64,000 nucleotides of DNA, from assembly GCA_024637035.1 (NCBI GenBank), contig JAGXFW010000016.1, forward strand, positions 310,001 through 374,000, read 5' to 3'. This stretch comes from Actinomycetes bacterium (lineage in GTDB: Bacteria; Actinomycetota; Thermoleophilia; RBG-16-64-13). Below, one piece after another: positions 1,339-47,696 of the stretch. Positions within the stretch are counted from its first letter, which is position 1. Each line of letters starts with the position of its first letter. The notes beneath the pieces were generated by a model. It made no database searches, had not been told where the DNA came from, and was given only the letters and a program-made list of their open reading frames with translations. The position numbers and the translations under genes are program-made.

Positions 1339-1473
1339 CTAAACGAGTCGTGTGCCCACCACATAGCCGATCACGAAGAATACCACGACGATCACCAGCA
1401 GCACGAGGATCATGAACAGCATCACGTCCCGGGTCTGCCGGCCACCCGACGAGGCTCGACGCTCACGCGCCAT
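1339..1473 (-). CDS. 44-residue single-pass membrane protein
   Basis: A short gene between folC and the zinc-ribbon gene. The predicted product starts MARERRASSGGRQTRD, a basic and polar tail of about 16 residues, then has a strongly hydrophobic stretch (about residues 18-40) and ends GTRLV. Its ATG lies inside the last codons of folC (11-base overlap), and its stop overlaps the Shine-Dalgarno of the zinc-ribbon gene, an arrangement typical of translational coupling. The basic N-terminus suggests N-in orientation. No family is recognised. The tight packing between two real genes and the clear positive tail plus membrane helix support it as real, but conservation must be tested. Confidence 0.6.
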   Translation of the reverse strand: MARERRASSGGRQTRDVMLFMILVLLVIVVVFFVIGYVVGTRLV

Positions 1474-2764
1474 GAAGGGAGCGCTTCAGATCGGCGATAA
1501 GATAGAGGGAACCTGTGGCTATGACCACCTGGCTCGACGTGGCCAGCTTGAAGGCACTGCGCAGAGCCGACCGCGGGTCGGGGTCGATGAAGACCTCCGG
1601 TGCGTCTTCAAGTTCCTCGAGGATGCTCGCAAGTTCCTCGGCCGGGTAGGAACGAGCGTTGCTGTTCTCGGTCACGAAGAGAATATCGCAGCGAGGTGCG
1701 AGATCGCGCAGCATCTCGAGAGCGCCTTTGTCCCGCAAGATCGACACCACGGCGATTAGGCGCCTCCGTGCTAGGAGGTGGTCGAGCGAGCGCAGCATCT
1801 CGGCCATGCCAGACGGGTTGTGTGCCCCGTCGAGCACGCAGTAGGGTTGCTCGCTGATCACCTCGAGGCGGCCGGGCACTGCCGTGCTGTAGAGGGAACT
1901 TCGTACCTTCTCCGGGTCGAGGGCCCGCTCGAGGAAGAGTTCCGCCGCCGCGATAGCCACCGCGGCGTTCGAGCGCTGGTAGTTGCCGAGCACGCTGAGC
2001 CGGATGCCGGGGTACAGATCGTAGATGCCGAACACGTCGAAGGAATCCTGGTGAACGTCGGTGAGAAGGGATACTTCGTCCCCCAGGAGATGAAGGGCCG
2101 CACCTCGCTCCGCGCAGATCTCGCGCAGCCGAAGGCGCACGTCGGCATCGAGGACGCCCGCGGCCACGGTACCGCCCGCGGGGATCACGGCCGCCTTCTC
2201 CTCTAGGATCGCCGAGGTGGTGTCGCCCAGGTGCTCGGTGTGCTCCAGCCCGATAGTGGTGACCACCTGCACATTCGACGAGATGATGCTCGTCGCGTCC
2301 CAACGTCCACCCAGACCGGCTTCGATCACAGCGACATCGCAACCCCGCTCCTGGAAGTGCAGATACGCCGCCACCGTGAGCACCTCGAACTGGGTGAGCA
2401 CCTCCCCCTCTGGCAGAGTCGCGTTCACCTGTTCGGCCAAGGGCATGATGCGGGCCACCAGGGCGTAGAACTCCTCATCAGTACTCGGAGCGCCGTCGAC
2501 CAGCTGCCGTTCGGAGAGGCTCACCAGGTGGGGCGACACGTAGGCGCCCACGCGCAGCCCGTGGGCCCGCAGTAGAGAGGAGATGAACCGCGTGGTCGAC
2601 GACTTGCCGTTGGTGCCCACCACGTGGATGGTCTTGTAGGAGTTCTGGGGGTCGCCCAAGAGCGCCGCCAACTTTCGCACACGGTCAAGGCCCAGACGCA
2701 TGCCGAACATCTCGAGCCCGGCCACGTATTCCCGCGCCTCGGCGATCGTGGGTGCCTTCTTCAC
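1463..2764 (-). CDS. folC: Bifunctional folylpolyglutamate synthase / dihydrofolate synthase
   Basis: A 433-residue Mur-ligase-fold enzyme that adds glutamate to dihydropteroate and to folates in the cytoplasm, an essential step in one-carbon metabolism. The ATP-binding loop VVGTNGKSSTT sits at about residues 48-58, followed by the typical SPHLVSLSERQLVDG segment, and the C-terminal Mur-ligase domain has the motif LDGAHNPSGM. Length is normal. The start is GTG at 2764, overlapping the valS stop by four bases (GTGA), so translation is coupled to valS. The gene order valS-folC is widespread in Gram-positive bacteria. Its own last codons contain the start of the 44-aa membrane protein. Confidence 0.95.
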   Translation of the reverse strand: MKKAPTIAEAREYVAGLEMFGMRLGLDRVRKLAALLGDPQNSYKTIHVVGTNGKSSTTRFISSLLRAHGLRVGAYVSPHLVSLSERQLVDGAPSTDEEFYALVARIMPLAEQVNATLPEGEVLTQFEVLTVAAYLHFQERGCDVAVIEAGLGGRWDATSIISSNVQVVTTIGLEHTEHLGDTTSAILEEKAAVIPAGGTVAAGVLDADVRLRLREICAERGAALHLLGDEVSLLTDVHQDSFDVFGIYDLYPGIRLSVLGNYQRSNAAVAIAAAELFLERALDPEKVRSSLYSTAVPGRLEVISEQPYCVLDGAHNPSGMAEMLRSLDHLLARRRLIAVVSILRDKGALEMLRDLAPRCDILFVTENSNARSYPAEELASILEELEDAPEVFIDPDPRSALRSAFKLATSSQVVIATGSLYLIADLKRSLHGA

Positions 2765-5451: not shown

Positions 5452-7997
5452 ATCTGCACCTCCGCGAACACGTGCGCCAGAACGTCCTTGAACTCGGTCA
5501 CGTACACGATCTCGAGCCCGCGCGTGAGTTCCGCGGGCACTTCCTTGATCTGGGGACGCACGTCGGCGGGCAGCACGACCTTCTGCACGCCCTCACGCAG
5601 CGCGGCCAACAGTTTCTCTTTGAGCCCTCCCACCGCCAAGACCTGACCTGTGAGGGTGATCTCACCGGAGAGCGCGACCTTCGGGGCCAAGGGGAGCAAC
5701 GTCAATGCCGAGAGCAGCGAGGCCGCCACGGCGATCCCCGCCGACGGTCCCTCCTTGGGGACTCCCCCTTCAGGCAGGTGCATGCGCACCTCGAGCGCGG
5801 CAAGGAGCTCGTGGTCGGTGGGGGCGGGCGGTTCGCACGCGAGCGTCTGCCCCTCACTGATCTCCACCTCTAGAGGCGTGACTCCCTCTTCCAGCAATAC
5901 TCCGATGTCCGTTCCGACGGCCTCGATCATGAGACCGGGCTCTCCGGCGCCTTCAGCGGAGACCAGGCTCTCACCGGGGCTGTAGTGCTCCAGCAGGTAG
6001 GCCCTGCCCTCCGATGCCCGCCAGAGCGAAGCAAGGTCCGCGTCGCGAGCCAGCGAGGTCTTGAGGTAGCCCCATGCGGCGGTGACGCTCTCCTGCATCA
6101 CCTCGCCCAGCTGGCCGGTGAGGTGGAAGTCACCCTTGCCCGGGCCCACCACGGTCTCGATACGAAGGATGTCGCCGCCGGCGCCTGTGTACGCCAGCCC
6201 GATGCTCACCCCCACCTTCGCCTCGCTCTCGACGCGGGCCCGCAAGAATGGCGGGGCCCCAAGATGACGTTCTGTCTCGCGCGGCCCGAGGCGGCCCGGC
6301 ACGGGTTTGCCTTCCACGCGGGAGCGGGCCAGCTTCCGATACACCTTGCCGATGAGTCGCGCCAGTTCGCGCACTCCGGCTTCGCGGGTGTACGAGCCGA
6401 TCAAGGCCCGGAGAGCCGGGCGCGAGAAGACGTCGCCCAAGTCGGCCAGCCCGTTCTCCTCGGCGAGTCGCGGCACAAGATGACGCCGGGCTATCTCCTC
6501 TTTCTCACGCTCGGTATATCCAGGGAGCCGGATCATCTCGAGACGGTCGTGCAGGGTCTCGGGGATGTCTTCCTCGTAGTTGGCCGTGGCCACGAACAGC
6601 ACCTTGGAGAGGTCGTACTCCAGCTCCAGATAGGTGTCGCGGAAGGCGTGGTTCTGCACCGGGTCGAGCACCTCGTTGAGGGCCGCCGCCGGATCTCCCC
6701 GCCAGTCGGACTCCAACTTGTCGAGTTCGTCGAGGAGCACGACGGGATCGTCCACCCCGGCACGCTTGAGGGCATCCACGATGCGCCCTGGCATCGCCCC
6801 TACGTAGGTCTTCCGGTGCCCGCGGATCTCGGCTTCATCGCGCACACCACCCAGGCTGATGCGCTGCAGCGGTCGACCGAGACCCTTCGCGATAGCCATG
6901 GCGACCGAGGTCTTCCCCACTCCCGGCGGCCCGATGAGGCAGAGCGTGGTGTTGGGCGGGGTGCCGCCCCGCAGGCGGGCCACCGCCAGGTACTCGATGA
7001 TGCGGTCCTTGACGTCCTTGAGCCCGTAGTGCGTCTCGTCCAGCACGCGGGCCACCTTCTCGACGTCGGGCAGGTCGGCCCCGGAGAGTTCGCCCCACGG
7101 CAGTCCGAGCACGTGGTCTAGGTAGGTCTTCGCCACGGCGCTTTCCGCAGAGAACGGCGGGAGCTCACCCAGACGGCGGATCTCCTTTTGGATCGCGGCG
7201 GCGGCCGCTTCTGGAGGGTGCTTCTCCTGCAGGAGCTTGGCATACTCGCCACCCTCGCCGCCGTCGTCTTCCTCGTCACCCAGCTCTTCGCGAAGTACGC
7301 GCATCCGCTCGCGCAGGAACACCTTGCGCTGGTGCCGCTCGAGGTTCTCGTGCACCTGGTCGGCGATCTCATTCTCGATCGCCATGAACTCGCTCTCCTG
7401 GATCAGGATCTCCAGCAGGCGCAGAAGGCGCTCTTCCGCATCGTCGCCCTCGAGCAGAGACTGCTTGCGGTCGGGCGCGATGTCCAGATGTGCGGCCACC
7501 AGATTGGCCACGTCTTCCGGGTCGGTGACATCGTCGAGCGCGGTCTCGGCTTCTTCCGGTAGCTGAGGCGACTGCGCCACGTACACCGAGAACTCGCGGG
7601 CGACGGAATCGACCAGCGCCCGCGTGCGCGACCAGTCTCGAGCCGGCTTGGTATGCAGTTCGCGCACGGCGACCATGAAGAGGGGCGACTCGCTGACGAA
7701 CGACTCGATCTCCACCCGGTGCAGCCCCTCGATCACGGCCTTGATGGTGCCGTCGATGAGGCGATGGAGCTGGACGACCTTGCAGAGCGTCCCCACGGTG
7801 AAGATGTCGGAGGGACCGGGATCCTCGATCGCGCCCACCTTCTGCGCTGAGATGACCAGCACACCGTCCTGGGCGTGCGCGCGCTCCAGCGCCCGAGCGC
7901 CGTGTTCGCGTACCTCGAAGATCGGAGTCAACATCCGGGGGAAGACGATGAGATCCCGTGTCGCCAGGAGCGGCAGCGTGCGCTGCGGGTCGGTCAA
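5448..7997 (-). CDS. lon: ATP-dependent Lon protease
   Basis: An 849-residue Lon protease that degrades misfolded and regulatory proteins in the cytoplasm. It shows the N-terminal substrate-binding domain (about 1-205), a coiled region, the AAA+ module with Walker A GPPGVGKT (356-363) and Walker [10 protein letters not shown], and the C-terminal peptidase with the catalytic pair S752 (PKEGPSAG) and K795 (GGLKEKLL), spaced 43 residues apart as in E. coli Lon. The start is TTG at 7997 with GGAG at suitable distance. An acidic insert ([11 protein letters not shown], about 241-251) sits in the linker. It follows clpX by about 12 bases. Confidence 0.97.
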
Positions 7998-8009
7998 TTC
8001 ACACTCCAG

Positions 8010-9281
8010 CTATGCTGACTCTTCGTCGAGATCGAGTTCGTCTCGACCGGCGCTGGTGACGAGCGTGGGCTCGATACTGCGCTCGATGACCTCTTTGGTG
8101 ATGACGCATTTCGTCACATCACGACGACTCGGAAGGTCGAACATCACGTTCGTGAGAGCGACCTCGATGATGGAACGGAGCCCCCGGGCCCCGGTATCAC
8201 GCACAACGGCCTTGTCGGCGATCGCGTCAAGAGTCTCTTTGGGAAACAGCAACTCCACACCGTCGTATGCGAAGAACTTGCGGTACTGCTTGACCAGGGC
8301 GTTCTTCGGTTCGGTGAGGATGGCCACGAGGTCTTCGCGACGGAGTTGGTGGACGTTCGCGATGACCGGCAGACGCCCTACGAACTCCGGGATCAGGCCG
8401 AAATTGAGTAGGTCTTCGGGCAACACCTGCGCGAACAACTCTCCCACATCACGCTCGCGCTTGCCCTCGATCACCGCGCCGAAACCCACACCCTTCCCGC
8501 CGATGCGGCGCTCGATGATCTTCTCGAGGCCCGCGAACGCTCCACCACAGATGAAAAGGATGTTCGTGGTGTCGATGGTGAGGAACTCCTGGTGCGGGTG
8601 CTTGCGGCCGCCCTGCGGCGGCACGCTGGCAGTGGTGCCCTCAAGGATCTTGAGCAGGGCCTGCTGCACGCCTTCACCGGATACATCCCGCGTGATCGAC
8701 GGGTTGTCGGCCTTGCGGGCGATCTTGTCGACCTCGTCGATGTAGATGATGCCCGTCTCAGCCTTCTTGACATCGAAATCGGCGGCCTGGATGAGTTTGA
8801 GGAGGATGTTCTCCACATCCTCGCCCACGTATCCAGCCTCCGTCAGAGCGGTGGCGTCGGCGATGGCGAACGGCACGTTGAGGAGTCGAGCCAGAGTCTG
8901 CGCTAGGAGGGTCTTGCCGCACCCGGTGGGCCCCACCAGCAGGATGTTCGACTTGGCCAGCTCGATGTCGTCATCTTCAGCGACCGCCATCTGCACACGT
9001 TTGTAGTGGTTGTACACGGCGACTGAAAGCGTGCGCTTGGCCTCTTCCTGGCCCACGACGTACTCCGACAACACAGAGTAGATCTCGCGCGGCTTCGGAA
9101 GGGTGTCGAGATCGAGGGTGACAGGCGCCGAGAACTCCTCGTCGATGATCTCGTTGCAGAGGTCGATGCATTCGTCGCAGATGTACACGCCCGGCCCGGC
9201 GATGAGTTTCTTCACCTGGCGCTGGCTCTTCCCGCAGAAGCTGCAGAGAAGCTGTTCGGAACCACCCGAGGGCTTCGGCAC
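8010..9281 (-). CDS. clpX: ClpX, ATPase subunit of the ClpXP protease
   Basis: A 423-residue AAA+ unfoldase that recognises substrates, including tmRNA-tagged proteins, and feeds them to ClpP. The N-terminal zinc-binding domain has C13/C16 and C35/C38, Walker A is GPTGCGKT (117-124), and Walker [12 protein letters not shown] follows. The pore loop and IGF loop regions appear intact, and length is typical. The start is GTG at 9281, preceded by GGGAG with a 7-base spacer. It sits directly after clpP (11-base gap), the classic clpP-clpX order. Since ssrA and smpB also lie in this window, the tagging and degradation arms of trans-translation are both represented. Confidence 0.97.
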
Positions 9282-9292
9282 GGAGCTACTCC

Positions 9293-9877
9293 CTACCTGT
9301 GTTCGATGATCTTGTCGACGATCCCATATGCAAGCGCGTCCTCTGAGTTCATGAAGTAGTCGCGCTCGGTGTCTTTCTCCACCTTCTCCAACTCCTGCCC
9401 GCTGTGCTTCGCGAGGATCTCGTCGAGCCTCCGCCGGAGGGCCAATGCCTCACGCGCGTGGATCTCGATATCTGTGGCGGGACCCTGGAATCCACCGGAC
9501 ACCTGATGTATCAACACCTTGGAGTTCGGCAACACGTACCGTTTTCCCTTCGCCCCGCCGGCGAGCAGCAGTGCGCCCATCGACATCGCGACCCCGATGC
9601 AGATGGTGGAGATGTCCGGCTTGACGAACTGCATGGTGTCGTAGATGGCGAGGCCGGCGTAGACGCTGCCGCCCGGGCTGTTGATGTACAAGGCGATGTC
9701 TTTGTCGGGGTCTTCAGACTCGAGGTGCAAGAGCTGCGCAACGATCAGGTTGGCCACCTGGTCGTTCACGGGTGTGCCGAGAAAGACGATGCGCTCATTG
9801 AGAAGTCGCGAGTAGATGTCGAACGCGCGCTCTCCGCGGCTGGTCTGCTCGACGACCATGGGAATCAATGGACTCAC
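9293..9877 (-). CDS. clpP: ClpP, proteolytic subunit of Clp proteases
   Basis: A 194-residue serine peptidase that forms the double-heptamer chamber of ClpXP. The catalytic triad is visible: S99 in GVAMSMGA, H124 in VLIHQVSGG and D173 in DTERD. The N-terminus ([22 protein letters not shown]) matches mature ClpP almost from the first residue, so a long propeptide is absent. The start is GTG at 9877 with AAAGGA upstream; an internal ATG at codon 7 is the alternative. It lies 40 bases after tig and before clpX, a conserved tig-clpP-clpX order. Confidence 0.97.
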
Positions 9878-9916
9878 CCTGCCATCCTTTCGCTCGGGTA
9901 GACGGGGCCTTTGAGG

Positions 9917-11311
9917 CTACTCACCCGCCGGAGACTCCTCCGGTCCACCCTCGTCAACGGGCAGTTGTTCGGGCTCTTCATCGGACGCTGTGGGCTGAAC
10001 GGCCTCTGCCTCCGACGGCGCCACGGCCACCGCGTTCTCCACAAGGAATTGGGCCGCGTTCTCGCGCAGGATCTGTTCGCGAATCTCCTTGATTCTACCA
10101 GACTCCTCGAGACGCGACCGCAGCTCGACCGGGTCGACCTTGCCGGCGGTGGCCAGCTTGCCCAATCTCTCCTGCATCTGTTCTTCCGAGATCTCCAACC
10201 CCTCCGCCGCCGCGACCGCGTCGAGCGCCAAGGTGGTGCGGACCGCGGACTCGGCCTCCGGGAGCATCTGCTTCACGAGGTCATCCGCCCCGGTCCCGGT
10301 GGCCTGAAGGTAATTCCTGATGTCCCCGCCCTGCATCGAGAGGGAGCGGGCGAAATCCTCCACCATCTCCCGCGCTTGGTTCTCAATAGCCGCGGGCGGG
10401 ATATCCACGATCAGGCCCTGAGCCACTTTCTGCACCACGGCGGCCCGGAACGACCGGTCCACAGCCGCGACGCGTCCTGCTTCGAGCTTCTTACGGATGT
10501 CGAGCCGCAACTCCAAGAGAGTCTCGAACTCGCTGGCATCCTTGGCGAACTCGTCATTCATGGCGGGGAGGTTCTTCTCTTTCGTCTCCTTGACCGTCAC
10601 CTGGAACTCCAAGGTGGCACCCTGAAGCTCCTCGGCGTGGTAGTCGTCAGGGAACCCCACCGTGACGGCGCGCTCCTCTCCAACCTCCATACCGACGATG
10701 CCGGCCTCTAGATCGGGCAGCAGGTAGCCGGCCCCGACCTCGAACATGTAGTCCTCGAGGTTGGTGTTCTCGATGAACTCGCCGTCGCGGTACCCCTTGG
10801 CGTCGATAGAAACGAAGTCGCCCTCGGCCACCGGGCGGCCCTCGACCGTCTTGAGTTCGCCGAACTGCTCGCGAAGACGCTCGACGTGCTCGTCGACTTC
10901 CGCGTCGGCGACCACGACCTCTTCACGAGGCGCCTCGATACCCTTGTAGTCGCCCAACTCCGCGACAGGCATCACCGTGACCAGCGCGGTGAACGTGAAC
11001 GGACGGCCGCGTTCCGGAGCCTCCTCGAAATCCACTTCCGGACGATCGACGGGCTCGATCTCCGTCTGCGTCAGCCCCGTGGCGTACCAGGCCGACAGGT
11101 GCTCATCGAGCATCTGGTGGACGATGGCCTCCATGCCGAACCGTTGCACCACGAGGTGCGAGGGGACCTTCCCCTTGCGGAACCCGGGGACACGGATCTC
11201 ACTGCCCAGCCGTTTGATCGTCACGTCGATCCCGCGATCGACATCTTCAGGCGGGACCTCGATCTCGAGCCGGATGCTGTTGCCTTCCCTCTCACCTACA
11301 GTGGTCTTCAA
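9917..11311 (-). CDS. tig: Trigger factor, ribosome-associated chaperone
   Basis: A 464-residue trigger factor that binds near the ribosomal exit tunnel and folds nascent chains. The N-terminal ribosome-binding domain contains GFRKGKVPSHLV, a variant of the GFRxGKxP ribosome-docking signature. The central FKBP-like prolyl isomerase domain (about 150-245) and helical C-terminal arms follow, ending in an acidic tail. The chosen start is TTG at 11311: AGAAAGGA lies five bases upstream and the family begins with KTTV-like sequence. Longer in-frame starts reach 11410 but would read through tRNA-Leu, so they are rejected. It follows the tRNA array by 60 bases with no T-rich terminator between, so read-through from the tRNA promoter is possible. 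Confidence 0.95.
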   Translation of the reverse strand: MKTTVGEREGNSIRLEIEVPPEDVDRGIDVTIKRLGSEIRVPGFRKGKVPSHLVVQRFGMEAIVHQMLDEHLSAWYATGLTQTEIEPVDRPEVDFEEAPERGRPFTFTALVTVMPVAELGDYKGIEAPREEVVVADAEVDEHVERLREQFGELKTVEGRPVAEGDFVSIDAKGYRDGEFIENTNLEDYMFEVGAGYLLPDLEAGIVGMEVGEERAVTVGFPDDYHAEELQGATLEFQVTVKETKEKNLPAMNDEFAKDASEFETLLELRLDIRKKLEAGRVAAVDRSFRAAVVQKVAQGLIVDIPPAAIENQAREMVEDFARSLSMQGGDIRNYLQATGTGADDLVKQMLPEAESAVRTTLALDAVAAAEGLEISEEQMQERLGKLATAGKVDPVELRSRLEESGRIKEIREQILRENAAQFLVENAVAVAPSEAEAVQPTASDEEPEQLPVDEGGPEESPAGE

Positions 11312-11372
11312 CTCGGTCCTTTCTACGATCGATGGGCCGGCGGTCTCGAGCCGCCCTCCGGCTGGGAGTAGG

Positions 11373-11452
11373 TGCGGGTGAGAGGACTCGAACCTCCACG
11401 TCAAAGACACATGATCCTAAATCATGCGCGTCTGCCATTCCGCCACACCCGC
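11373..11452 (-). tRNA. tRNA-Leu (anticodon TAG)
   Basis: The acceptor stem GCGGGTG pairs with CACCCGC. The anticodon stem CATGA/TCATG holds loop TTTAGGA with anticodon TAG. The long variable arm is characteristic of leucine tRNAs, and the T-arm GGTTCGAGTCC is present. The 3' CCA is not encoded. It is the last member of the five-tRNA array. Confidence 0.93.
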
Positions 11453-11581
11453 ACAGCACGGAGCCTTCTCGCGCTCCGACGGTCGAACCGCACACGACCC
11501 ACTCCTGGAGTCGCAACAACACGCGACCCTCCAACGCATTCGCCGGCCGTGCCGACGGCGTGAAGGGTCCCGGTACTGGAG

Positions 11582-11655
11582 GGTGAACGACGGGATTCGA
11601 ACCCGCGACCGCTGGAGCCACAATCCAGTGCTCTACCGACTGAGCTACGTTCACC
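11582..11655 (-). tRNA. tRNA-His (anticodon GTG)
   Basis: The acceptor GTGAACG/CGTTCAC and anticodon stem CTGGA/TCCAG enclose TTGTGGC with anticodon GTG. The gene encodes a G at the -1 position (11655) opposite C73 (11582), the hallmark of histidine tRNA. The CCA end is not encoded. Confidence 0.95.
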
Positions 11656-11703
11656 ATGCGTCACCCGAGTCACTTCTGGCCCGCGGCGACCCTCCTCCTC
11701 AGG

Positions 11704-11777
11704 CGCGCCTGGGAGGATTCGAACCCCCGGCCCACGGATTAGAAGTCCGTTGCTCTATCCACCTGAGCTACAGGCGC
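11704..11777 (-). tRNA. tRNA-Arg (anticodon TCT)
   Basis: Acceptor stem GCGCCTG pairs with CAGGCGC; anticodon stem ACGGA/TCCGT holds loop CTTCTAA with anticodon TCT, which reads the rare AGA codon. The discriminator base is G. The CCA end is not encoded. Confidence 0.94.
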
Positions 11778-11815
11778 CTTCACCACCCCGAGCCAAGGAC
11801 TGGCGGGACTCAAGG

Positions 11816-11888
11816 AGCGGGCGACGGGATTCGAACCCGCGGCCGACGGCTTGGAAGGCCGACGCTCTACCAGCTGAGCTACACCCGC
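11816..11888 (-). tRNA. tRNA-Gly (anticodon TCC)
   Basis: Acceptor stem GCGGGTG pairs with CGCCCGC (one G-T pair); the loop CTTCCAA gives anticodon TCC. The discriminator is T, usual for glycine tRNA. The outermost anticodon-stem pair appears to be a T-T mismatch. The CCA end is not encoded. Confidence 0.93.
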
Positions 11889-11918
11889 CCGCTACGCCTC
11901 CCACCCTTCCACTCAAGG

Positions 11919-11992
11919 TCGGGACGAGAGGATTCGAACCTCCGACCCTCTGCTCCCAAAGCAGATGCGCTACCAGGCTGCGCCACGTCCCG
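11919..11992 (-). tRNA. tRNA-Pro (anticodon TGG)
   Basis: Acceptor stem CGGGACG pairs with CGTCCCG; anticodon stem TCTGC/GCAGA holds loop TTTGGGA with anticodon TGG. It is the first gene of the array, about 23 bases downstream of the likely transcription start. The CCA end is not encoded. Confidence 0.95.
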
Positions 11993-12021
11993 ACGCAATG
12001 CCCTACAGCATCGGAAGCGGA

Positions 12022-12027
12022 ATTATA
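12022..12027 (-). promoter_or_regulatory. -10 box of the tRNA array (and possibly tig-clpPX-lon)
   Basis: On the minus strand this is a perfect TATAAT about 30 bases before tRNA-Pro. At a 17-base spacing the -35 position reads GTGGAA, only a 3/6 match. The position and perfect -10 make a housekeeping-sigma promoter likely. Confidence 0.65.
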
Positions 12028-12083
12028 GCGTATCGACCGTTCGATTCCACCACGATCGAGGTTCGAGCCGGACTCGCTGAGGA

Positions 12084-12089
12084 TAGAAT
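12084..12089 (+). promoter_or_regulatory. -10 box of the Lrp-like gene
   Basis: TAGAAT (5/6 match) lies 46 bases before the ATG of the Lrp-domain gene. The -35 region (GTTCGA at 17-base spacing) is weak. It is divergent from the tRNA array promoter. Confidence 0.4.
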
Positions 12090-12134
12090 GGGTCCACGGG
12101 TTGAATCGCGCGGCGAACCGGAGGTGAGCGGACT

Positions 12135-12368
12135 ATGGTGCGTGCATACGTTCTCGTGAAGATCGAAGCAGGCAGAGCCAAGGAGATACTCGATCACTTG
12201 CGCGAGATACCGAGCGTGGAAGGCGCCGACGCGGTCACGGGGCCGGTGGACCTGATCGTGCGCGTGTCCGCTGAAGATCCAAGGGCGCTGGCCGAACTCA
12301 TCTTCAGATCCATCCAGACCACCTCCGGCGTCAAAGAGACCGACACGCGCATCGTGATCGAGGACTAG
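12135..12368 (+). CDS. Stand-alone Lrp/AsnC ligand-binding (RAM) domain protein
   Basis: A 77-residue protein consisting only of the effector-binding domain of Lrp/AsnC regulators, with no helix-turn-helix. The sequence MVRAYVLVKIEAGRAKEI, then EGADAVTGPVDLIVRV, matches the alpha-beta sandwich of this domain, in which amino acids bind between subunits. Such stand-alone forms exist in archaea and actinobacteria and may sense amino acids or modulate full-length partners; the partner here is unknown. The ATG has GGAGGTGA eight bases upstream. It stands alone, divergent from the tRNA array and before the epimerase gene. Confidence 0.88.
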   Translation: MVRAYVLVKIEAGRAKEILDHLREIPSVEGADAVTGPVDLIVRVSAEDPRALAELIFRSIQTTSGVKETDTRIVIED

Positions 12369-12377
12369 GCCCGGGGT

Positions 12378-12386
12378 TGATACAAT
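12378..12386 (+). promoter_or_regulatory. Extended -10 promoter of the epimerase gene
   Basis: TGA-TACAAT is an extended -10 element with a 5/6 hexamer. It lies about 145 bases before the GTG start, giving a long leader with potential hairpins (GCGGA/TCCGC near 12412-12430 and GC-rich stems near 12460-12485). Confidence 0.4.
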
Positions 12387-12530
12387 CAGTGCTCTGACGG
12401 TCGGGAGCATCCGGCGGAGTGTTTCCGCGGGCATGGTCTTCGAGTTGATGACAGTCTGGCGGCGCTGAGGCCGCGCGTCGCCGCTGGTCGCGCACCGTCA
12501 CCGTGCCACGTCCCCATCCGAGGAGGATCA

Positions 12531-13457
12531 GTGCGAGCCCTTGTCACCGGAGGAGCGGGCTTCATAGCGTCTCACGTATCAGACCGACTGCTCGAAGATG
12601 GGCACGAGGTGGCCATCCTCGACAACCTGGCCACGGGCAAACGTGCCAACCTCCCGCCCGAGGCCCGCTTCTACGAACTCGACATCAGGGATCCCGCACT
12701 CGCCGATGTGTTCGCCGCGGAACGGCCCGAGATCGTGATCCACCACGCGGCGCAGATGGACGTGCGCAGGTCGGTGGCCGAGCCCGCCTACGATGCCGAG
12801 GTGAACCTTCTCGGCACCCTCAATCTCCTCGAACGCTGCCGCGAACACGGCACACGAAAGGTCGTGTACGCGGGCACCGGGGGCGCGATGTTCGGCGAGG
12901 CCGCCTACCTGCCCGTGGACGAGCTTCACCCCGTCATGCCGATCTCACCCTATGGGGTGAGCAAGCACACGGTCGAGCACTACCTGCACGCATACCATGT
13001 CAACTTCGGTCTCGACTTCACGGTACTGCGCTATCCGAACGTCTACGGGCCCCGCCAGGACCCCCACGGCGAAGCAGGGGTGGTGGCCATCTTCGCGCTC
13101 CAGATGCTCGACGGTCGGCAGCCTCTCATCTTCGGCGACGGATCCAAGACCCGCGACTACTGCTTCGTCGGTGACATCGTCGAGGCAAACGTGCTCGCGA
13201 CCGAACGAGGCGGGGCGGGACTGTTCAACATCGGTCGGGGTGTGGAGGTCTCAGACCTCGAGGTCTTCGAGACCGTCCGAGCTGCCGTAGGCTCGACGGT
13301 GGAGCCTCAGTTCGCGCCGACGCGGTCGGGTGAGGTGGAGCACATAGCGCTCGACGCTACGTTGGCCGGCCGTGAGCTGGGCTGGGAGTGGCGCGTGGGG
13401 TTCGGGGAAGGGGTCGAGAAGGCAGTGGAGTTCTACAGGTCAAAGAGGGAGAGGTAG
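12531..13457 (+). CDS. NAD-dependent epimerase/dehydratase (UDP-glucose 4-epimerase-like)
   Basis: A 308-residue extended short-chain dehydrogenase acting on nucleotide sugars. The Rossmann motif TGGAGFIASH (residues 6-15) binds NAD, the catalytic pair is Y141/K145 (YGVSK), and the T/S-region reads AGTGGAMFGE. The segments NVYGPRQDPHGEAGVVAIF and FGDGSKTRDYCFVGD are typical of GalE-like epimerases in actinobacteria. Exact substrate specificity cannot be read from the sequence, so no symbol is assigned. The start is GTG at 12531 with GAGGAGG just upstream. It is followed after five bases by a short basic and acidic protein of unknown function. Confidence 0.9.
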   Translation: MRALVTGGAGFIASHVSDRLLEDGHEVAILDNLATGKRANLPPEARFYELDIRDPALADVFAAERPEIVIHHAAQMDVRRSVAEPAYDAEVNLLGTLNLLERCREHGTRKVVYAGTGGAMFGEAAYLPVDELHPVMPISPYGVSKHTVEHYLHAYHVNFGLDFTVLRYPNVYGPRQDPHGEAGVVAIFALQMLDGRQPLIFGDGSKTRDYCFVGDIVEANVLATERGGAGLFNIGRGVEVSDLEVFETVRAAVGSTVEPQFAPTRSGEVEHIALDATLAGRELGWEWRVGFGEGVEKAVEFYRSKRER

Positions 13458-13462
13458 ACGAA

Positions 13463-13852
13463 GTGACAGAGAGACGACGTCGCGACGGCAGAAGCGAGGG
13501 ACGCCGAGACGGACGGGGTGAAGGACGGAGTGAAGGACGGGGTGAGCAGCGGGACAGCGACAGTCAGGGTCCCGAGCGCGATCCCGGCCCACAAGAGCCG
13601 GAACGCGAGGTTCTCACGGCTCTGAAGACGATCCTGGTGAAGGTGGCCGGAGTCGTCAAGCCACTCGGCCTGACTCCGGCGGAAGCGACCGATCTCGTGC
13701 AGCGCATGTATGGAGCTGTGCTCGAGATGGATGGTCGGTTGGCCAACGAGCCCGACGAGCAGCGCAGGAACGCGATGATCGAATATGTGCGGGACTCGGT
13801 GATCCGCCGCGAGGACGACGACCTCGTGGTCGATCATCCTTCGGGAGACTAG
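13463..13852 (+). CDS. Hypothetical protein with a low-complexity Arg/Gly/Glu N-terminus
   Basis: A 129-residue protein that is not recognised. Residues 3-50 are a charged low-complexity stretch built of short RSEGR/RDGRGE-type repeats, mirrored in the DNA by repeats of GACGGGGTGAAG type. The remaining part (about 55-129) looks helical: LTALKTILVKVAGVVKPLGL, then a TPAEATDLVQRMYGAVLEMDG stretch and a charged end. The start is GTG at 13463, with GAGAGG upstream and five bases after the epimerase stop; the frame stays open further 5' inside the epimerase gene, but starting there would be a long overlap. Probably co-transcribed with the epimerase. Confidence 0.6.
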   Translation: MTERRRRDGRSEGRRDGRGEGRSEGRGEQRDSDSQGPERDPGPQEPEREVLTALKTILVKVAGVVKPLGLTPAEATDLVQRMYGAVLEMDGRLANEPDEQRRNAMIEYVRDSVIRREDDDLVVDHPSGD

Positions 13853-41661: not shown

Positions 41662-42908
41662 CAGGCTGTAGATCGCTCTCGCACCTGGAGCATGACTTTG
41701 AACATGCCGCCCAGGCCGTCCTCGTCGAGCAGCGCCGCCAGAGGGGCCCCGTCGATATCCGCCTGAAGCGAGTACGCGCCGGTTCCTTCTGGAGAGACAC
41801 CGTTGGCGAGTGCGCCCGCCGGAGCTTCCTCTCCAGCGGCGACAAGGAATCTTGCCAACGGTACGAACAACATACATTCCAACCCGCACGCCTCGCCATG
41901 AAGGGCCATTGCCCTGAAGTCGACGTCGGCAGTGAGATCTTGGCGACCCACCGCGCGGTACGGGTCGCGTGTGACCCGGTGCCGGTGGTAGCCGCGAAGA
42001 GTTCGAGCATGGAGGATCGGGGCGCCGGCGGCCCAGCCCGCGGCGAGCGCCCCGGCGACCTCCTCGTGAGGCGTCCCGGCGAACGGCCCGGCGAGCCAGT
42101 CGCCGTAGTCTATGGTCATCACGATGGATTCCTCAAACCAGCCACTCCACCGATCGAGTAGCGAGCGCACTGCGGGTCGCAGTTCGATAAGGCCGTCGCG
42201 GGTGAAAGCACGCGCCGCATCGATGTCGTCGCCCGCCATGAGGAACCGCAGTTCGGCGGCCGCTTCTTCACTCAACGGATCCCATGATTCCTCGCACCGC
42301 GCGGTGCCGTCGGCGCCTCTGACCACGGACACCCATGCTTCCGAAGGATGCGCCCCACGCACGTCGACCAAGTGCACCGGCAAGGCGTCGATGAGCTCGT
42401 TGCTGATCACGATGCCTGTCGCGGATCGTTCGGCGGCGAAACCACCCCCCTCGGGATCTGGGCCGCCCGGTCCGGCCACGCGCACGTTCCAACCAGCGCG
42501 AGCGAATGGCGCAAGCTCCTCCGCCTGCTTGGCACGCAGGCCTTCAGCCACGTCGAGCACCACGTACGAGACCCGCTCTCGAAGATCCGGCCTCGTACGT
42601 TGCCAGTGATCGAGCACGCCGGCCGCCAGATCACCCTCACCGCCGCCCACCTCGACGACGAAAACCTGGCCCTCGGCGACCGCATCGACGAGACTCGCGA
42701 CCGTGACAGCGACCGCGCGGTTGAAGCCGGGCGCGAGCCTTGGAGCCGTGGAGAAGTCGCCGCTTTCCCCGAGCACGCGGTCGCTCCGCGAGTAGTAACC
42801 CACCTCCGGGTGCGTGAGCGCCAGCTCCATGAAGCGGGCGAAGGGCACCCGGCCGCCTTCCTCCTCGATGACCCGCGCGAGTTGAGGGGGGAGGTCAGCC
42901 ATCCCCAT
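41661..42908 (-). CDS. MidA/NDUFAF7-type SAM-dependent methyltransferase
   Basis: A 415-residue methyltransferase of the DUF185 family. It begins with RVPFARFMELALTHPEVGYYS, typical for the family, and the SAM motif VVEVGGGEGDLAAG is clear; SNELIDALPVHLV is the other family signature. The eukaryotic homologue methylates an arginine in respiratory complex I; bacterial targets are mostly unknown. Start is ATG at 42908 or ATG at 42902, two codons in. It overlaps the GyrI-like gene by 14 bases and feeds into the GNAT gene. Confidence 0.9.
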   Translation of the reverse strand: MGMADLPPQLARVIEEEGGRVPFARFMELALTHPEVGYYSRSDRVLGESGDFSTAPRLAPGFNRAVAVTVASLVDAVAEGQVFVVEVGGGEGDLAAGVLDHWQRTRPDLRERVSYVVLDVAEGLRAKQAEELAPFARAGWNVRVAGPGGPDPEGGGFAAERSATGIVISNELIDALPVHLVDVRGAHPSEAWVSVVRGADGTARCEESWDPLSEEAAAELRFLMAGDDIDAARAFTRDGLIELRPAVRSLLDRWSGWFEESIVMTIDYGDWLAGPFAGTPHEEVAGALAAGWAAGAPILHARTLRGYHRHRVTRDPYRAVGRQDLTADVDFRAMALHGEACGLECMLFVPLARFLVAAGEEAPAGALANGVSPEGTGAYSLQADIDGAPLAALLDEDGLGGMFKVMLQVRERSTA

Positions 42909-43383
42909 ACGGAGCCTCGGGGCTGAGCACGGGCACCTGCACCTCTACGACCCACTCCCCGGGCCGACCTTCCGGAGCATTGTGATAGATCTGCCGGTGA
43001 CAGAGCGTGGACCGCTCGAGCCCCTGGTCGTCCGCCCACTCCAGAGCGGCGACCAAGGCCTCGCCGACTCCATCGGGGAATCCTCTATGCGTCAAGCTGA
43101 CCACCTGCTCCGCCTCCACGACGCGGAGCGTGATGCGGTCATCATCCGACTCCGGGAGACGTGTGCCTTGCGGCACGGGCAACCACGCCTCGGCGTCCAA
43201 GGTCGTATCGGGATCGAGTGAGTCGAAATAGACCCCCACCAGGGGGCCCCACTGCCCCACGTGATAGACGTCGGCCCATGACACCACCTGGTCGAACGCG
43301 ACTCCCGCGCCACGAGCGGGACCCGAGTAGGAGCACACCGCCACCGTGGTCCGCACCGTCGTCACCAGAGCGCAGTCGTTCAT
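42895..43383 (-). CDS. GyrI-like/effector-binding domain protein
   Basis: A 162-residue protein consisting of one small-molecule-binding domain like that of GyrI and the AraC/BmrR effector domain. The segments FDQVVSWADVYHVGQWGPLVGVYFDS and AEAWLPVP fit this fold, and the C-terminal EWVVEVQVPV is the typical last strand. There is no DNA-binding domain. The role is unknown; relatives bind drugs or DNA gyrase. The gene lies 20 bases after the acyl-CoA ligase gene stop and overlaps the methyltransferase gene. Confidence 0.75.
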   Translation of the reverse strand: MNDCALVTTVRTTVAVCSYSGPARGAGVAFDQVVSWADVYHVGQWGPLVGVYFDSLDPDTTLDAEAWLPVPQGTRLPESDDDRITLRVVEAEQVVSLTHRGFPDGVGEALVAALEWADDQGLERSTLCHRQIYHNAPEGRPGEWVVEVQVPVLSPEAPYGDG

Positions 43384-43402
43384 CGAGCGCCCACCGTAGC
43401 GT

Positions 43403-45673
43403 TCATCGAGCGCCCCCCGTGCCGCCCACCGTGCCGTTCACCGAGTCGAGGTAGGCCCGGTAGCAGGCCATCTTCGCTATCACCCTCACAGAGCGGAGCG
43501 GCGAAGGCAGCACCACGGCCGAATACGTTCCGCCACTCTCGAACACGGCCTGCTCCACCGGAGTGAACGACACGTTGATGATGGGCTTCTCGTAGCGGTT
43601 CATCAACTCCCCGGTGCGCCGGATGTAGGCTGCTTCCCTGCTCATGAAATCCTCGAACTCGCCCAACTCCCTCAACGCCGGGTCACCCCCCGCGGCTGCT
43701 TGGATCGAGGCCGCCGTTTCGATGACGCGCTGGCGGCCCGGACCTATCCCCACGATGCCGAGAGCGATGACCGCGTCTACGGCGTCGCAGCGCACCACCG
43801 CCTCTACCGCCCGCTCGGGCGCGAAGTCGCTCATGGCGCCGACCAGGTCGACGGGGTTCCCATGGCTCCAATAGGCCGGCAGGACCGCGCTGAGTTCGTC
43901 GAGCACGTCCTGGGGAAGGTCGGCCAGCTCAAGCCCCGTGCGCGATACCTCATCGGCGCTCAGCACCCCCCATCCCCCGCCCATGGTGACGACAGCAACC
44001 CTCCGCCCGCGCGGGAGCGGCATGTACGAGAGCGAGAAGGCCAGGTCGAGGAACTCGTCGGGGTCGCTCGTAGAGATGATGCCGCTCTGTCGCACCACCG
44101 CTTCGTACACACGCGAGGAGCCGGCCATAGTACCGGTGTGCGACAAGGCCGCTTTCGTACCGTAGTCACTGACCGCCGCTCGGAGCACGATGACGGGCTT
44201 CTGCACGCTCGCCTTGCGCGCCGACTCCATGAACCGACGTCCGTCGCTGAAGCCCTCGAGATACGCGAGGATCACCCCGGTCTGCGAGTCGGTGCGGAAG
44301 TACTCGAAAAGGTCCGTGGCGTCGAACAGGGCTTCGTTGCCGATGCCTACGAATTTGCCGATGCCTCCCTTGCGCCCCTCAGCAGCCGCCATGAGCTGGA
44401 TGCCCATGTTGCCCGATTGAGAGAGGAAGCTGCCCGGGCCCGTCTCCGGATGCATGATCACCGCTCCGGTGGCATAGAAGCGGCTCCAGGACGACATCAC
44501 ACCCATACAGTTCGGGCCGATCATCGCGATGCCGTGACGGGCACACGTCTCGGCCACCGTCCGTTCGAGGGCCGCCCCCTCGGCGCTCACCTCGGAGAAC
44601 CCCGAGCTGATCACCACGACCGCACGAACGCCCAACGAGGCACACTCGTCGATGACTTCGGGCACCAGCCGCGCCGGCACCGCCACAATGACCAGATCGG
44701 GCACCTCGGGCAGATCGCCCAAGGACGGGAACGCCGGCAGCCCGAAGATGCTCTCCGAACGAGGGTTGACTGGGTATAGCGCACCAGGGAACCCGCCTGA
44801 CATCATGTTGGCCAAGATAGTCCCGCCCCACTTGGTGGGATCGTTGGAGGCGCCGACCACGGCCACCGACTTCGGCGAGAACACGGCGTCCAGGTTGTGC
44901 AGGTTCGCCTCGAGATCCTTCTGCTCGCCCTGGTCGGGCTTCCGAAGGGTGACCAAGGCGTCCACCGCGACCGGCCGAGTGTCATCCACCAGAACGGGGT
45001 TCACGTCGATCTCACCGATCTCGGGATGATCGAACGCCATGCGCCCCACCGATTGGATGAGGTCTACGAGCGCCTGGCGATCCACCGCGGGAGACGCACG
45101 GAACTCGCCCAGGAGCTTGGTGGCCCTGAAGGCGCCCAGCAGCTCGTTGGCTTCCCTGTCGTCCAACGGAGCCACCCCGAAGGCGACGTCGTCGAGCGCC
45201 TCGGTGAGAATGCCGCCAACCCCGAACATGACCACCGGACCGAATTGCGGATCTCGCGTCATGCCCACCACGAATTCCCTGCCCCGCGGGAGCATCTTCT
45301 CCACCAGCACGCCTTCGAGGGCAGCTTCGCCCCTGCGCTGGAGGGAGTGGAACGCAGAACGGGCCGCCTCATCGTCGTCGATGTCGAGCACCACCAGCCC
45401 GGCGTCGGTCTTATGGAGGACATCGCGGGCCATCCCCTTCATTACCACGGGGTATCCCAGTGAGTGAGCGGCTGCCAGCGCCTCGGCGAGGTCGCGCACG
45501 ACCGCGCCAGGGGTCACCGAGATGCCGTAGGCCGCGAAGAGCGACTTTGCCGCAGACTCGTCGAGAGACCCAAGGCCGGCGGCAAGGGCGGCTTCCACGA
45601 TCTCACGGCCGGGTGGAGGGGGCCCATTATCCGCCCCGTGGGGCTTGGACGGCTCCGCCTTTTCGACCGACAT
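43403..45673 (-). CDS. ADP-forming acyl/acetyl-CoA ligase, domains in beta-alpha order
   Basis: A 756-residue fused enzyme that interconverts acyl-CoA + ADP + Pi and acid + CoA + ATP, a typical fermentative ATP-making step. An ATP-grasp domain comes first (about 25-250: YPVVMKGMARDVLHKTDAGLV, FGVGGILTEALDD), followed by the CoA-binding Rossmann domain (about 285-410: VAVVGASNDPTKWGG) and the succinyl-CoA-ligase-like part with LSQSGNMGIQL and LSHTGTMAGS, whose His is the likely phospho-residue. Most fused bacterial enzymes put the CoA-binding part first. The ATG at 45673 has AAGGAGGAAGG upstream. Upstream 45674-45797 holds no other gene. Confidence 0.9.
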   Translation of the reverse strand: MSVEKAEPSKPHGADNGPPPPGREIVEAALAAGLGSLDESAAKSLFAAYGISVTPGAVVRDLAEALAAAHSLGYPVVMKGMARDVLHKTDAGLVVLDIDDDEAARSAFHSLQRRGEAALEGVLVEKMLPRGREFVVGMTRDPQFGPVVMFGVGGILTEALDDVAFGVAPLDDREANELLGAFRATKLLGEFRASPAVDRQALVDLIQSVGRMAFDHPEIGEIDVNPVLVDDTRPVAVDALVTLRKPDQGEQKDLEANLHNLDAVFSPKSVAVVGASNDPTKWGGTILANMMSGGFPGALYPVNPRSESIFGLPAFPSLGDLPEVPDLVIVAVPARLVPEVIDECASLGVRAVVVISSGFSEVSAEGAALERTVAETCARHGIAMIGPNCMGVMSSWSRFYATGAVIMHPETGPGSFLSQSGNMGIQLMAAAEGRKGGIGKFVGIGNEALFDATDLFEYFRTDSQTGVILAYLEGFSDGRRFMESARKASVQKPVIVLRAAVSDYGTKAALSHTGTMAGSSRVYEAVVRQSGIISTSDPDEFLDLAFSLSYMPLPRGRRVAVVTMGGGWGVLSADEVSRTGLELADLPQDVLDELSAVLPAYWSHGNPVDLVGAMSDFAPERAVEAVVRCDAVDAVIALGIVGIGPGRQRVIETAASIQAAAGGDPALRELGEFEDFMSREAAYIRRTGELMNRYEKPIINVSFTPVEQAVFESGGTYSAVVLPSPLRSVRVIAKMACYRAYLDSVNGTVGGTGGAR

Positions 45674-45797
45674 CCTTCCTCCTTGTGGTAGTGCTGTGCC
45701 GGCGGGGTCCCAGTGGGGATGCATGAGCCGGAACGGGGTTCGCGCGGTGGGCGGCATTCCGCCCGACAATAGCACAAGGGAGGTGATCGGCGGGTCT

Positions 45798-45836
45798 GAG
45801 GCGGATCGCCTCGGCCGCTGGCGGCCGGAGGGCTTC
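45798..45836. repeat. Two adjacent hairpins at the edge of the low-G+C island
   Basis: GAGGCG-GAT-CGCCTC and CGGCCG-CTGG-CGGCCG are two consecutive small stems, followed on the plus strand by CTTCTTTTGG. They lie between the HEPN-like gene (stop 45864) and the acyl-CoA ligase promoter region. They may terminate transcription, mainly in the plus direction, or mark an insertion boundary. Confidence 0.4.
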
Positions 45837-45863
45837 TTTTGGTGAGACGATATGGCCCTGTGA

Positions 45864-46394
45864 CTACTCTCGCCCGCCCGCTCGTTGCCTTTGTCCGAGC
45901 ACTTCCATCTCAACGCCCGCAAGCAGGGTGGTTATCTCGTTGATTGCAGCTACGCCCCCTATCCTCCACTCCCCCCCGTCGTATTTGATCGACCAGGGTT
46001 GACCATCGGGGAAACTTGCGGCGAACTCCCTGCCAGAACGGTGCAGGTCTACGCGATTCCGGAAGGTTGGTCGCTGCTCCTCCCAGTGTTCGTATATGTT
46101 CCGCAAGAGCACAAGTGGATCGAGCAATTCCCGTGGGAACGTTAGTGGTGGGTGGACCTTGCTGGCTTCAATCAGCGCGCGACTTAGATTCGTGCCAACG
46201 ACGAGGAGGAGGTGTTCATCGAGAGAGGCCGCAGAAGACGACTTACGCCTATCCAGCTCGTCGCGCCCTTGACCTTCGCCGAGGGTGCTTAGCGAGAGCC
46301 TGTGCACCTGCAGCTGCCAAGACCAGACCCAATGAAGAACGTCATCCAGAATGAGGTCGCGCTGCCCTGTGACGTACCCTGCTTCAGACGGCAT
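45864..46394 (-). CDS. Hypothetical protein with HEPN-type RNxxxH motif
   Basis: A 176-residue protein not recognised by family. A helical central part (about 57-110) contains RNIYEH at residues 98-103, which matches the R-N-x-x-x-H signature of HEPN-domain ribonucleases. The N-terminus is aromatic and helical (HWVWSWQLQVHRL), and the last 50 residues look beta-rich (PWSIKYDGGEWRIGGV). The ATG has GGAGGT eight bases upstream. It lies 86 bases after the PIN gene on the same strand, probably in one transcript. A chance motif remains possible; the fold has not been tested. Lower G+C than its neighbours suggests acquisition. Confidence 0.6.
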   Translation of the reverse strand: MPSEAGYVTGQRDLILDDVLHWVWSWQLQVHRLSLSTLGEGQGRDELDRRKSSSAASLDEHLLLVVGTNLSRALIEASKVHPPLTFPRELLDPLVLLRNIYEHWEEQRPTFRNRVDLHRSGREFAASFPDGQPWSIKYDGGEWRIGGVAAINEITTLLAGVEMEVLGQRQRAGGRE

Positions 46395-46480
46395 CCGCTA
46401 TACCTCCGCGCTTCAGATCCAGACGAACGAGCCCTTCTGTGTGGTTCACAAGCGCTGACAGCCGGAAGGCGTGCCCTGGC

Positions 46481-46963
46481 CTAGTCGCCTGGACCAACGG
46501 CACTTAGAAGTTGTAGCAGCGACAAGCACGGCACCCCTTCTTGTTGGCATAGTGACTGAACGGCCGCATCGTTGGAGACAAGTGTGTGGCCTTGCAGCAG
46601 ACACACTTCGATGAGCAAGGCATCACCTCGGTTACCTCTCTTGTTGCTGCGTCCCGGATGATCTCTGAGCTTCCCAAGAAGGCGCTCGAAGTGCCCGCCG
46701 TCCTGGGCCCAGGCCAGCTCGCCCCAAGGGGACATGCCCCATATGAATGTCTCGTGTGAAGCTCGACCGTCTGGAACACCATTCTCAATGGTCCGAAGCC
46801 CGTCCAACAACTTCCTGCGAATCTTCGGGTCGTTTGTCGATTCAATCTCTGACTCCTGGAGGGAGGTGATGAAGTACTCATGGTCGATGCTGAAGTCAGC
46901 AATCGCGACGTCTTCTTTGACTATCTGATTGCTAGCATTGGTATCGAGCACGAACTTCGTCAT
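46481..46963 (-). CDS. PIN-domain protein, probable ribonuclease
   Basis: A 160-residue protein with the acidic PIN active site visible: D7 (FVLDTNAS), E37 or E39 (ITSLQESEIE), D114 (NRGDALLIE) and D132 (VSNDAAVQS). PIN proteins are metal-dependent RNases, often toxins of toxin-antitoxin pairs or enzymes of defence and RNA decay. No VapB-like antitoxin gene is seen upstream; the next gene downstream encodes the RNxxxH protein. The start is ATG at 46963, 10 bases or so after GAAGAAGGG; the frame remains open further 5' but no recognisable sequence is encoded there. The first part of the gene has only about half G+C. Confidence 0.75.
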   Translation of the reverse strand: MTKFVLDTNASNQIVKEDVAIADFSIDHEYFITSLQESEIESTNDPKIRRKLLDGLRTIENGVPDGRASHETFIWGMSPWGELAWAQDGGHFERLLGKLRDHPGRSNKRGNRGDALLIEVCLLQGHTLVSNDAAVQSLCQQEGVPCLSLLQLLSAVGPGD

Positions 46964-47186
46964 CGACCGTTGCCCTTCTTCCCGCAGTGACCACAGGCAA
47001 TCCGATGCACGTCCCGTAACCCCGGCGGCTTGATCCGCTCGATAGTCACCCGACCGTTGGCTCAGGGCGGTGGAGAAGACGAGATTGTGTGCCGCCCCTC
47101 GCCATGCGCATCCGGCACGCCAGAATCGTAGCATGGCGCACGGATAGGAAGGCCAGTCGTCGCTTGGTGCACCTTCGGCGGAAGGA
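46964..47186. other. Intergenic stretch between the PIN gene and ssrA, no gene supported
   Basis: This stretch has no supported gene. The reading frame of the PIN gene continues open up to 47191 but encodes nothing recognisable. No integrase remnant, insertion-sequence end or copy of the ssrA 3' end was found by eye. Confidence 0.4.
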
Positions 47187-47222
47187 AACACAAAGCCCCG
47201 GCGTCACAGTGACTGCCGGGGC
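47187..47222 (-). terminator. Rho-independent terminator of ssrA
   Basis: On the minus strand GCCCCGGC and GCCGGGGC pair, extended by inner GTCAC/GTGAC with a single bulge, and TTTGTGTTT follows. It lies just beyond the 3' end of tmRNA. Confidence 0.75.
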
Positions 47223-47229
47223 CGTGAGG

Positions 47230-47584
47230 TGGAGGCGGGGGGAATCGAACCCCCGTCCGAGACTCGCCTGGACAAGACTTCTACGAGCGTAGCTCCCACA
47301 TTATTTCTCGCCTCTTGCCACCGTGAGAGCAGGTCGCTTTCGGCCAGCCACCTTAGTGTCCCCGGCGCGGCGGCGGCAGTCGCATCGGGTGAGTCCGCCT
47401 AAATGATGCCACGACCCTTCCCGGCAGACGCGGAAGGCGTGACAGGCGCTTAAACTAGGTTAAGCGGCCAGTGCCAATTGGGTATCGGCAGTTGTTCTTT
47501 TCCAACCCGTTTAGCGAGAATGGTTGGAATCTCGGCTCGCTACCTTGACTCAGACCTGAACCCCGTCGAAACCATGTCGCCCCC
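47230..47584 (-). ncRNA. ssrA: tmRNA (transfer-messenger RNA)
   Basis: tmRNA rescues stalled ribosomes with SmpB. The tRNA-like ends are clear: 5' GGGGGCG pairs with 3' CGCCTCC, and the T-arm GGGGGTTCGATTCCCCC is present; the 5' region contains the GACATGGTTTCGACGGGG-type sequence typical of tmRNA. The tag reading frame probably runs 47489 to 47460 and reads A-D-T-Q-L-A-L-A-A before TAA, preceded by AACAACT; with the tmRNA-borne alanine this gives AADTQLALAA, ending in the ClpXP-recognised LAA. The CCA is only partly encoded (ACC). It lies downstream of smpB on the same strand. Confidence 0.95.
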
Positions 47585-47628
47585 AAGATGGGACGTCGGC
47601 CGATAGGCCAGCATCCTTCGTCGAGGGA

Positions 47629-47634
47629 AGTATA
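47629..47634 (-). promoter_or_regulatory. -10 box of ssrA
   Basis: TATACT on the minus strand lies about 45 bases before the mature tmRNA 5' end. The -35 position GTGTCG (17-base spacing) is a 3/6 match. The precursor 5' leader would be removed by RNase P. Confidence 0.5.
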
Positions 47635-47696
47635 CCGCAAGAACGACGTGACGACACGCCTGCGGCCGCGGGAACGGGGGTGTTGACGGGCTTCGG

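Follow-up and report, generated by a model that had tools for sequence, protein, structure and literature searches.

Two short genes stand beside the tmRNA gene of an actinobacterium, one with the look of a PIN-domain nuclease and the other carrying a motif of the HEPN ribonucleases. Do they form one functional unit, as the original prediction implied when it called them a cassette, or did they come to lie side by side as separate passengers of acquired DNA? We followed this question through the window, that is, the whole 64,000-nt stretch analysed, and through the loci of related genes in other genomes. The features discussed below are the following.

45834..47225, no strand assigned: acquired insertion of ~1.39 kb (blastn empty site in G070 and lowest G+C)
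45864..46394, minus strand: HEPN-like gene P0002, 176 aa (four homologues, four-helix model)
46086..46103, minus strand: codons 98-103 of P0002, RNIYEH, putative HEPN Rx4-6H active-site motif (invariant in homologues)
46395..46480, minus strand: spacer of 86 nt between the PIN-like and HEPN-like genes, without an attC-like site
46481..46963, minus strand: PIN-domain-like gene P0001, 160 aa (PHROG 2765, paralogue P0004, Foldseek)
46964..47225, no strand assigned: upstream part of the insertion, with a hairpin and a T-rich stretch
47228..47584, minus strand: ssrA (tmRNA), tag ADTQLALAA, with the insertion directly at its 3' end

An insertion at the 3' end of ssrA

Both genes lie downstream of the ssrA 3' end and on the same strand, inside a segment that G070, the sole other genome of the same genus in our comparison, does not have at the corresponding site. 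When the window was compared by blastn with the G070 locus (L012), positions 42061-45833 corresponded to L012 2834-6575 and positions 47226-47658 to L012 6619-7051, leaving ~43 unrelated nt between the flanks in G070 vs 1,392 bp here; the ssrA gene itself is 97% identical in G070. The G+C content of the insertion, 58.5% vs an average of 65.6% (sd 2.1) for the window, is below that of every one of the 1,253 sliding windows of 1,392 bp. At positions 46861-46980 it falls to 49.2%, so the value of about 48-50% given earlier for this part, against roughly two thirds elsewhere, was right. GC3 tells the same: 63-65% for the PIN-like and HEPN-like genes vs 79-86% for housekeeping genes, only those with a correctly read frame being counted (an acyl-CoA synthetase, read out of frame, was left out). 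The empty site in G070, together with the lowest G+C of any stretch of this size and the lower GC3, supports the earlier suggestion of acquisition: the 1.39-kb insertion is foreign DNA.

The 3' end of the tmRNA gene is a known integration site (e.g., PMC3146451), and the position of the insertion fits that of an ssrA-integrated genomic island, but the integrase and the duplicated ssrA end of such an island are absent here. Among the ORFs of the insertion none encodes an integrase, and neither a repeated ssrA 3' end nor an att repeat was found, which rules out a duplicated ssrA 3' end as the att site. An integron cassette array was ruled out as well, since window positions 45600-47300 contain no attC. 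In the upstream part of the insertion, an 8-bp GC-rich hairpin followed by a T-rich stretch was read by eye at 47195-47222, just 3' of ssrA; judging by its sequence and place, it is plausibly the ssrA terminator. The scan of 46964-47225 returned no consensus sigma-70 promoter and, by its stricter rule, no terminator. In the spacer between the two genes, GGAGG stands 8 nt ahead of the ATG of the HEPN-like gene.

The genome to which the window belongs (G000) has an integron elsewhere (L068, G000:C30:108000-127000; positions 8338-9381 and 4800-7700 of that locus), with a full-length integron integrase (TIGR02249, 7e-142) and several attC-like sites. A MazF/PemK toxin gene is among its cassettes; neither PIN nor HEPN-like genes were recognised in this integron.

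A divergent, likely PIN protein and its relatives

P0001 has VLDTN in its N-terminal part, and the ORF and the acidic positions D7, E37/E39, D114 and D132 are all present just as originally described. Neither Pfam nor NCBIfam names the protein. Residues 1-146 match PHROG 2765, a PhoH-type family, at 3.6e-4; the N-terminal part of this family we take to be a PIN domain. A paralogue in the same genome, P0004, is 31% identical to P0001, keeps all four of its acidic positions and matches Pfam PIN weakly (0.0084), while a distant relative in locus L026 has E39 replaced by Q and E37 kept. The Foldseek list of PDB entries, obtained from a poor single-sequence model (pLDDT 52), consists mostly of PIN proteins (PRORP, HARP, AF0591, TTHA0540, SMG6 and VapC), with a best E of 0.024. 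Matches of the PIN_5/HARP type were weak both by profile (E 0.19) and by Foldseek (E 0.024). Since the PHROG 2765 match, the Pfam PIN match of P0004 and the PIN-dominated Foldseek list are weak but consistent with one another, P0001 is likely a PIN protein; it belongs to a divergent small group.

With the VapC-type and other PIN nucleases (PF01850; PHROG 2765; HARP/PRORP), P0001 shares VLDTN, the four acidic positions and the weak matches just named. Unlike these, it does not itself match Pfam PIN and has no adjoining VapB-type antitoxin gene; the sole gene that adjoins it is the HEPN-like one. Nor does the ORF list of the insertion contain a small ORF recognisable as a plausible antitoxin, in keeping with the first reading of the locus, which had seen no classical antitoxin.

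The relatives of P0001 occupy mobile or defence-related contexts. P0004 adjoins an EcoRI-type methylase and an HNH restriction enzyme in an integrase-bearing element, a relative on a Streptomyces plasmid (L020) adjoins an integrase, and the relative in L026 (G156, 1459-3313) adjoins a reverse transcriptase in opposite orientation. When plasmid, phage and viral collections were searched with either protein of the insertion, nothing came up besides two Streptomyces plasmids, which P0004 had matched in the plasmid collection.

Two of these surroundings deserve a description of their own. The integrative element that holds P0004 extends over 5392-13737 of locus L014 (G000:C6:112000-128000) and comprises a tyrosine integrase, an EcoRI-type adenine methylase and a GmrSD_N-HNH type II restriction enzyme besides P0004 itself. 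The L026 reverse transcriptase scored best with PADLOC RT_other (4e-148) and also matched retron outgroup models; possibly, L026 is a retron or another defence reverse transcriptase locus.

A small HEPN-like family

The second gene had been assigned to the HEPN ribonucleases from RNIYEH at residues 98-103 of its product; both the motif and the length of 176 aa are as described. We rejected an assignment from the motif alone, as such a pattern is expected by chance: Rx4-6H occurs in 84% of P0002 shuffles and the narrower R[NDH]xxxH in 6%. The motif becomes meaningful because R98 and H103 are conserved in homologues. Four of these were found, at about 20-46% identity: P0003 in G070 (42%), one in a Gemmatimonadota bacterium (L015, 46%), one in L006 (27%) and one in L017/L008 (26%), counted once because both loci apparently come from the same genome. 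None of the four departs from R98 or H103, so this check, proposed with the original assignment, speaks for it. All of the homologues have L-R-[NHD]-x-x-E-H-W in common, and the alignment of the five sequences retains only eight invariant columns, among which are R98, E102, H103 and W104. Residue 99 reads N/H/H/H/D across the five, and the HEPN superfamily, in which Rx4-6H is conserved, has the very same preference for a polar N, D or H after R (PMC3710099).

The fold, which the original prediction had also named as a check, agrees more loosely. In the model of P0002, helices are predicted at residues 4-40, 46-80, 88-114 and 148-175 (mean pLDDT 68.7), with the motif inside helix 3, followed by a long loop that includes a small hairpin and then by helix 4; in HEPN proteins, the motif sits at the end of helix 3 (PMC3710099). 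In the Foldseek list, HEPN toxins come in at ranks 15 and 36 with E 1.5-2.5, surrounded by generic helical bundles. P0002 has no match in Pfam, NCBIfam, PADLOC or PDB sequences, and hhalign against the HepT profile gave a probability of 0.5%, though both R-x4-H motifs were aligned. The four predicted helices, the motif on helix 3 and the invariant R98/H103 stand in favour of the HEPN assignment, but neither profile nor fold search gave it a significant match. All in all, we regard P0002 as quite probably a HEPN protein.

Two known groups invite comparison. Like the HepT or HEPN-MNT toxins (PF01934, PF05168), P0002 has a motif of the R-N-x3-H type and a predicted four-helix fold, and its homologue P0003 adjoins a HEPN/MNT pair; unlike them, P0002 has no MNT partner, and the profile comparison was non-significant. 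The published integron HEPN protein Vpc_cass2 (PDB 3JRT; PMC3548836; PMC3710099) resembles, as described, what P0002 is predicted to be: a small four-helix protein that stands alone and carries an R/H motif. It comes from a single-gene integron cassette, as do two of the four P0002 homologues. P0002 has no detectable sequence similarity to any PDB chain, and, in contrast to Vpc_cass2, its gene in the window lies outside an integron and lacks an attC.

The homologues in L015 and L017 are single genes between attC-like repeats. Each repeat family recurs along its locus at gene-sized spacing, in one of the two it also surrounds a BrnA antitoxin gene, and both genomes encode integron-integrase-like recombinases. 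Next to P0003 lie genes for a HEPN protein, a nucleotidyltransferase, a Phd antitoxin and a ParE-type toxin, and the L006 homologue stands alone. The integron-cassette and toxin-antitoxin contexts of the P0002 family fit the published integron HEPN, and for such proteins a role as dormancy-inducing RNases has been proposed (PMC3710099).

As for the wider surroundings of these homologues, the G070 locus (L013 / L005, G070:C47) is a dense toxin-antitoxin cluster in which the nucleotidyltransferase, HEPN, P0003, Phd and ParE-type genes follow in a row. In the Gemmatimonadota array, the next cassette (L015:3213-3776) encodes a 187-aa protein with no Pfam match.

Cargo genes or a two-nuclease system

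A single strand and a gap of 86 nt would permit co-transcription of the two genes. Nevertheless, a PIN relative was found in the fetched flanks of none of the four HEPN-like homologues, and a HEPN-like gene or the LR[NHD]xxEH signature in none of the four PIN-relative loci (L014, L018, L020 and L026); these counts refer to flanks of 1.5 kb for the genome-search loci, a contig scan on one short pattern and few known homologues, so a very rare but real pairing could escape them. Genome-wide, no PIN homologue was detected in G070, in the Gemmatimonadota genome or in G199, and the genome of the fourth HEPN-like homologue gave only a 42-residue PIN match (E 0.07). The other genomes sampled from the same taxonomic family lack both genes genome-wide, except for the HEPN-like homologue elsewhere in G070. 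Because the genes do not co-occur in other loci, a functional two-gene PIN and HEPN system is not supported, and the cassette of the original prediction fails in this sense: the pairing is not conserved. The sole combination of PIN and HEPN described in the literature consulted is that of eukaryotic Swt1, where the two are fused and the HEPN part is inactive (PMC3710099). Unlike this single polypeptide, the window has two genes, an intact motif and an unconserved pairing.

We therefore no longer count the pair among candidate two-nuclease systems and think it rather probable that two solitary nuclease cargo genes were united by chance at ssrA. Solitary PIN and solitary HEPN proteins in mobile elements are a known kind. 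According to this scenario, foreign DNA of 1.39 kb at the ssrA 3' end would carry, as separate same-strand cargo, a gene for a PIN-domain nuclease and one from a small, mobile and so far unnamed HEPN-like family, and their closeness would most likely reflect accumulation at a tolerant insertion site by ssrA. Each protein would then act by itself as an RNase, inactive at first and cutting tRNA, rRNA or mRNA once stress or phage infection sets in, P0002 through R98/H103, probably as a dimer, and P0001 through a D7/E39/D114/D132 metal site. Single-gene cassettes with no antitoxin would suggest that such proteins either have an intrinsically low activity or are switched on by a signal from stress or phage. 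Judged by their contexts, both genes are probably stress or anti-phage RNases.

Several other scenarios have to be weighed against this one. The two genes might be decaying relics of a larger ssrA-integrated island and have no present function, a doubtful reading that overlaps with chance-united cargo (the confidence we place in the various readings is not meant to sum to one). It draws on the known use of the ssrA 3' end for integration (PMC3146451) and on the loss of integrase, att repeat and consensus promoter, but both ORFs are intact with every putative catalytic residue present, their codon-position G+C pattern is normal, and the HEPN-like gene has a good ribosome-binding site. We find it rather unlikely that P0002 is some other small helical protein, e.g., a substrate-binding or adaptor protein of the KNTase_C type, with LRxxxEHW serving structure and not catalysis. 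The lack of a significant HEPN match by profile or fold search, the pLDDT of 68.7 and the chance frequency of a bare Rx4-6H pattern would all agree with such a protein. Yet R and H are among just eight columns invariant in five sequences, and HEPN proteins likewise prefer N/H/D after R. The motif, which the model puts on helix 3 and ahead of a long loop and helix 4, comes near the HEPN placement, and the integron and toxin-antitoxin contexts match those of the described integron HEPN family.

That the PIN and HEPN-like proteins make up a toxin-antitoxin-like or dual-nuclease module, binding each other with one inhibiting the other by analogy with HEPN/MNT and VapBC, strikes us as improbable. 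The common strand, the 86-nt gap and the shared small insertion would suit such a module, and the PIN-HEPN fusion in Swt1 offers a precedent for physical cooperation (PMC3710099). Against it, neither gene's homologues have the other nearby, two of the HEPN-like homologues sit in single-gene cassettes, and both P0001 and P0002 are unlike any known antitoxin. More improbable still is a new kind of defence or addiction unit made of two nucleases, the PIN protein and an active HEPN RNase, which would control each other with no classical antitoxin; it would have arisen recently in this lineage as mobile single genes came together.

With chance-united cargo as the preferred reading, attention shifts to the small, unannotated, stand-alone HEPN-like family with the signature LR[NHD]xxEHW, which travels in integron cassettes, in toxin-antitoxin clusters and at ssrA, in Actinomycetota and Gemmatimonadota alike. 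Neither Pfam nor NCBIfam nor PADLOC has a model for it, and, if its HEPN nature is confirmed, the family would be new within a known kind. Should its members prove to be RNases, they would provide more evidence for solitary nuclease toxins or defence genes that have no antitoxins in integron cassettes. HepT-like genes (PF01934) are plentiful in some of the related genomes: a search of 31 genomes gave 12 matches in G070, 10 in G076 and 6 in G000.
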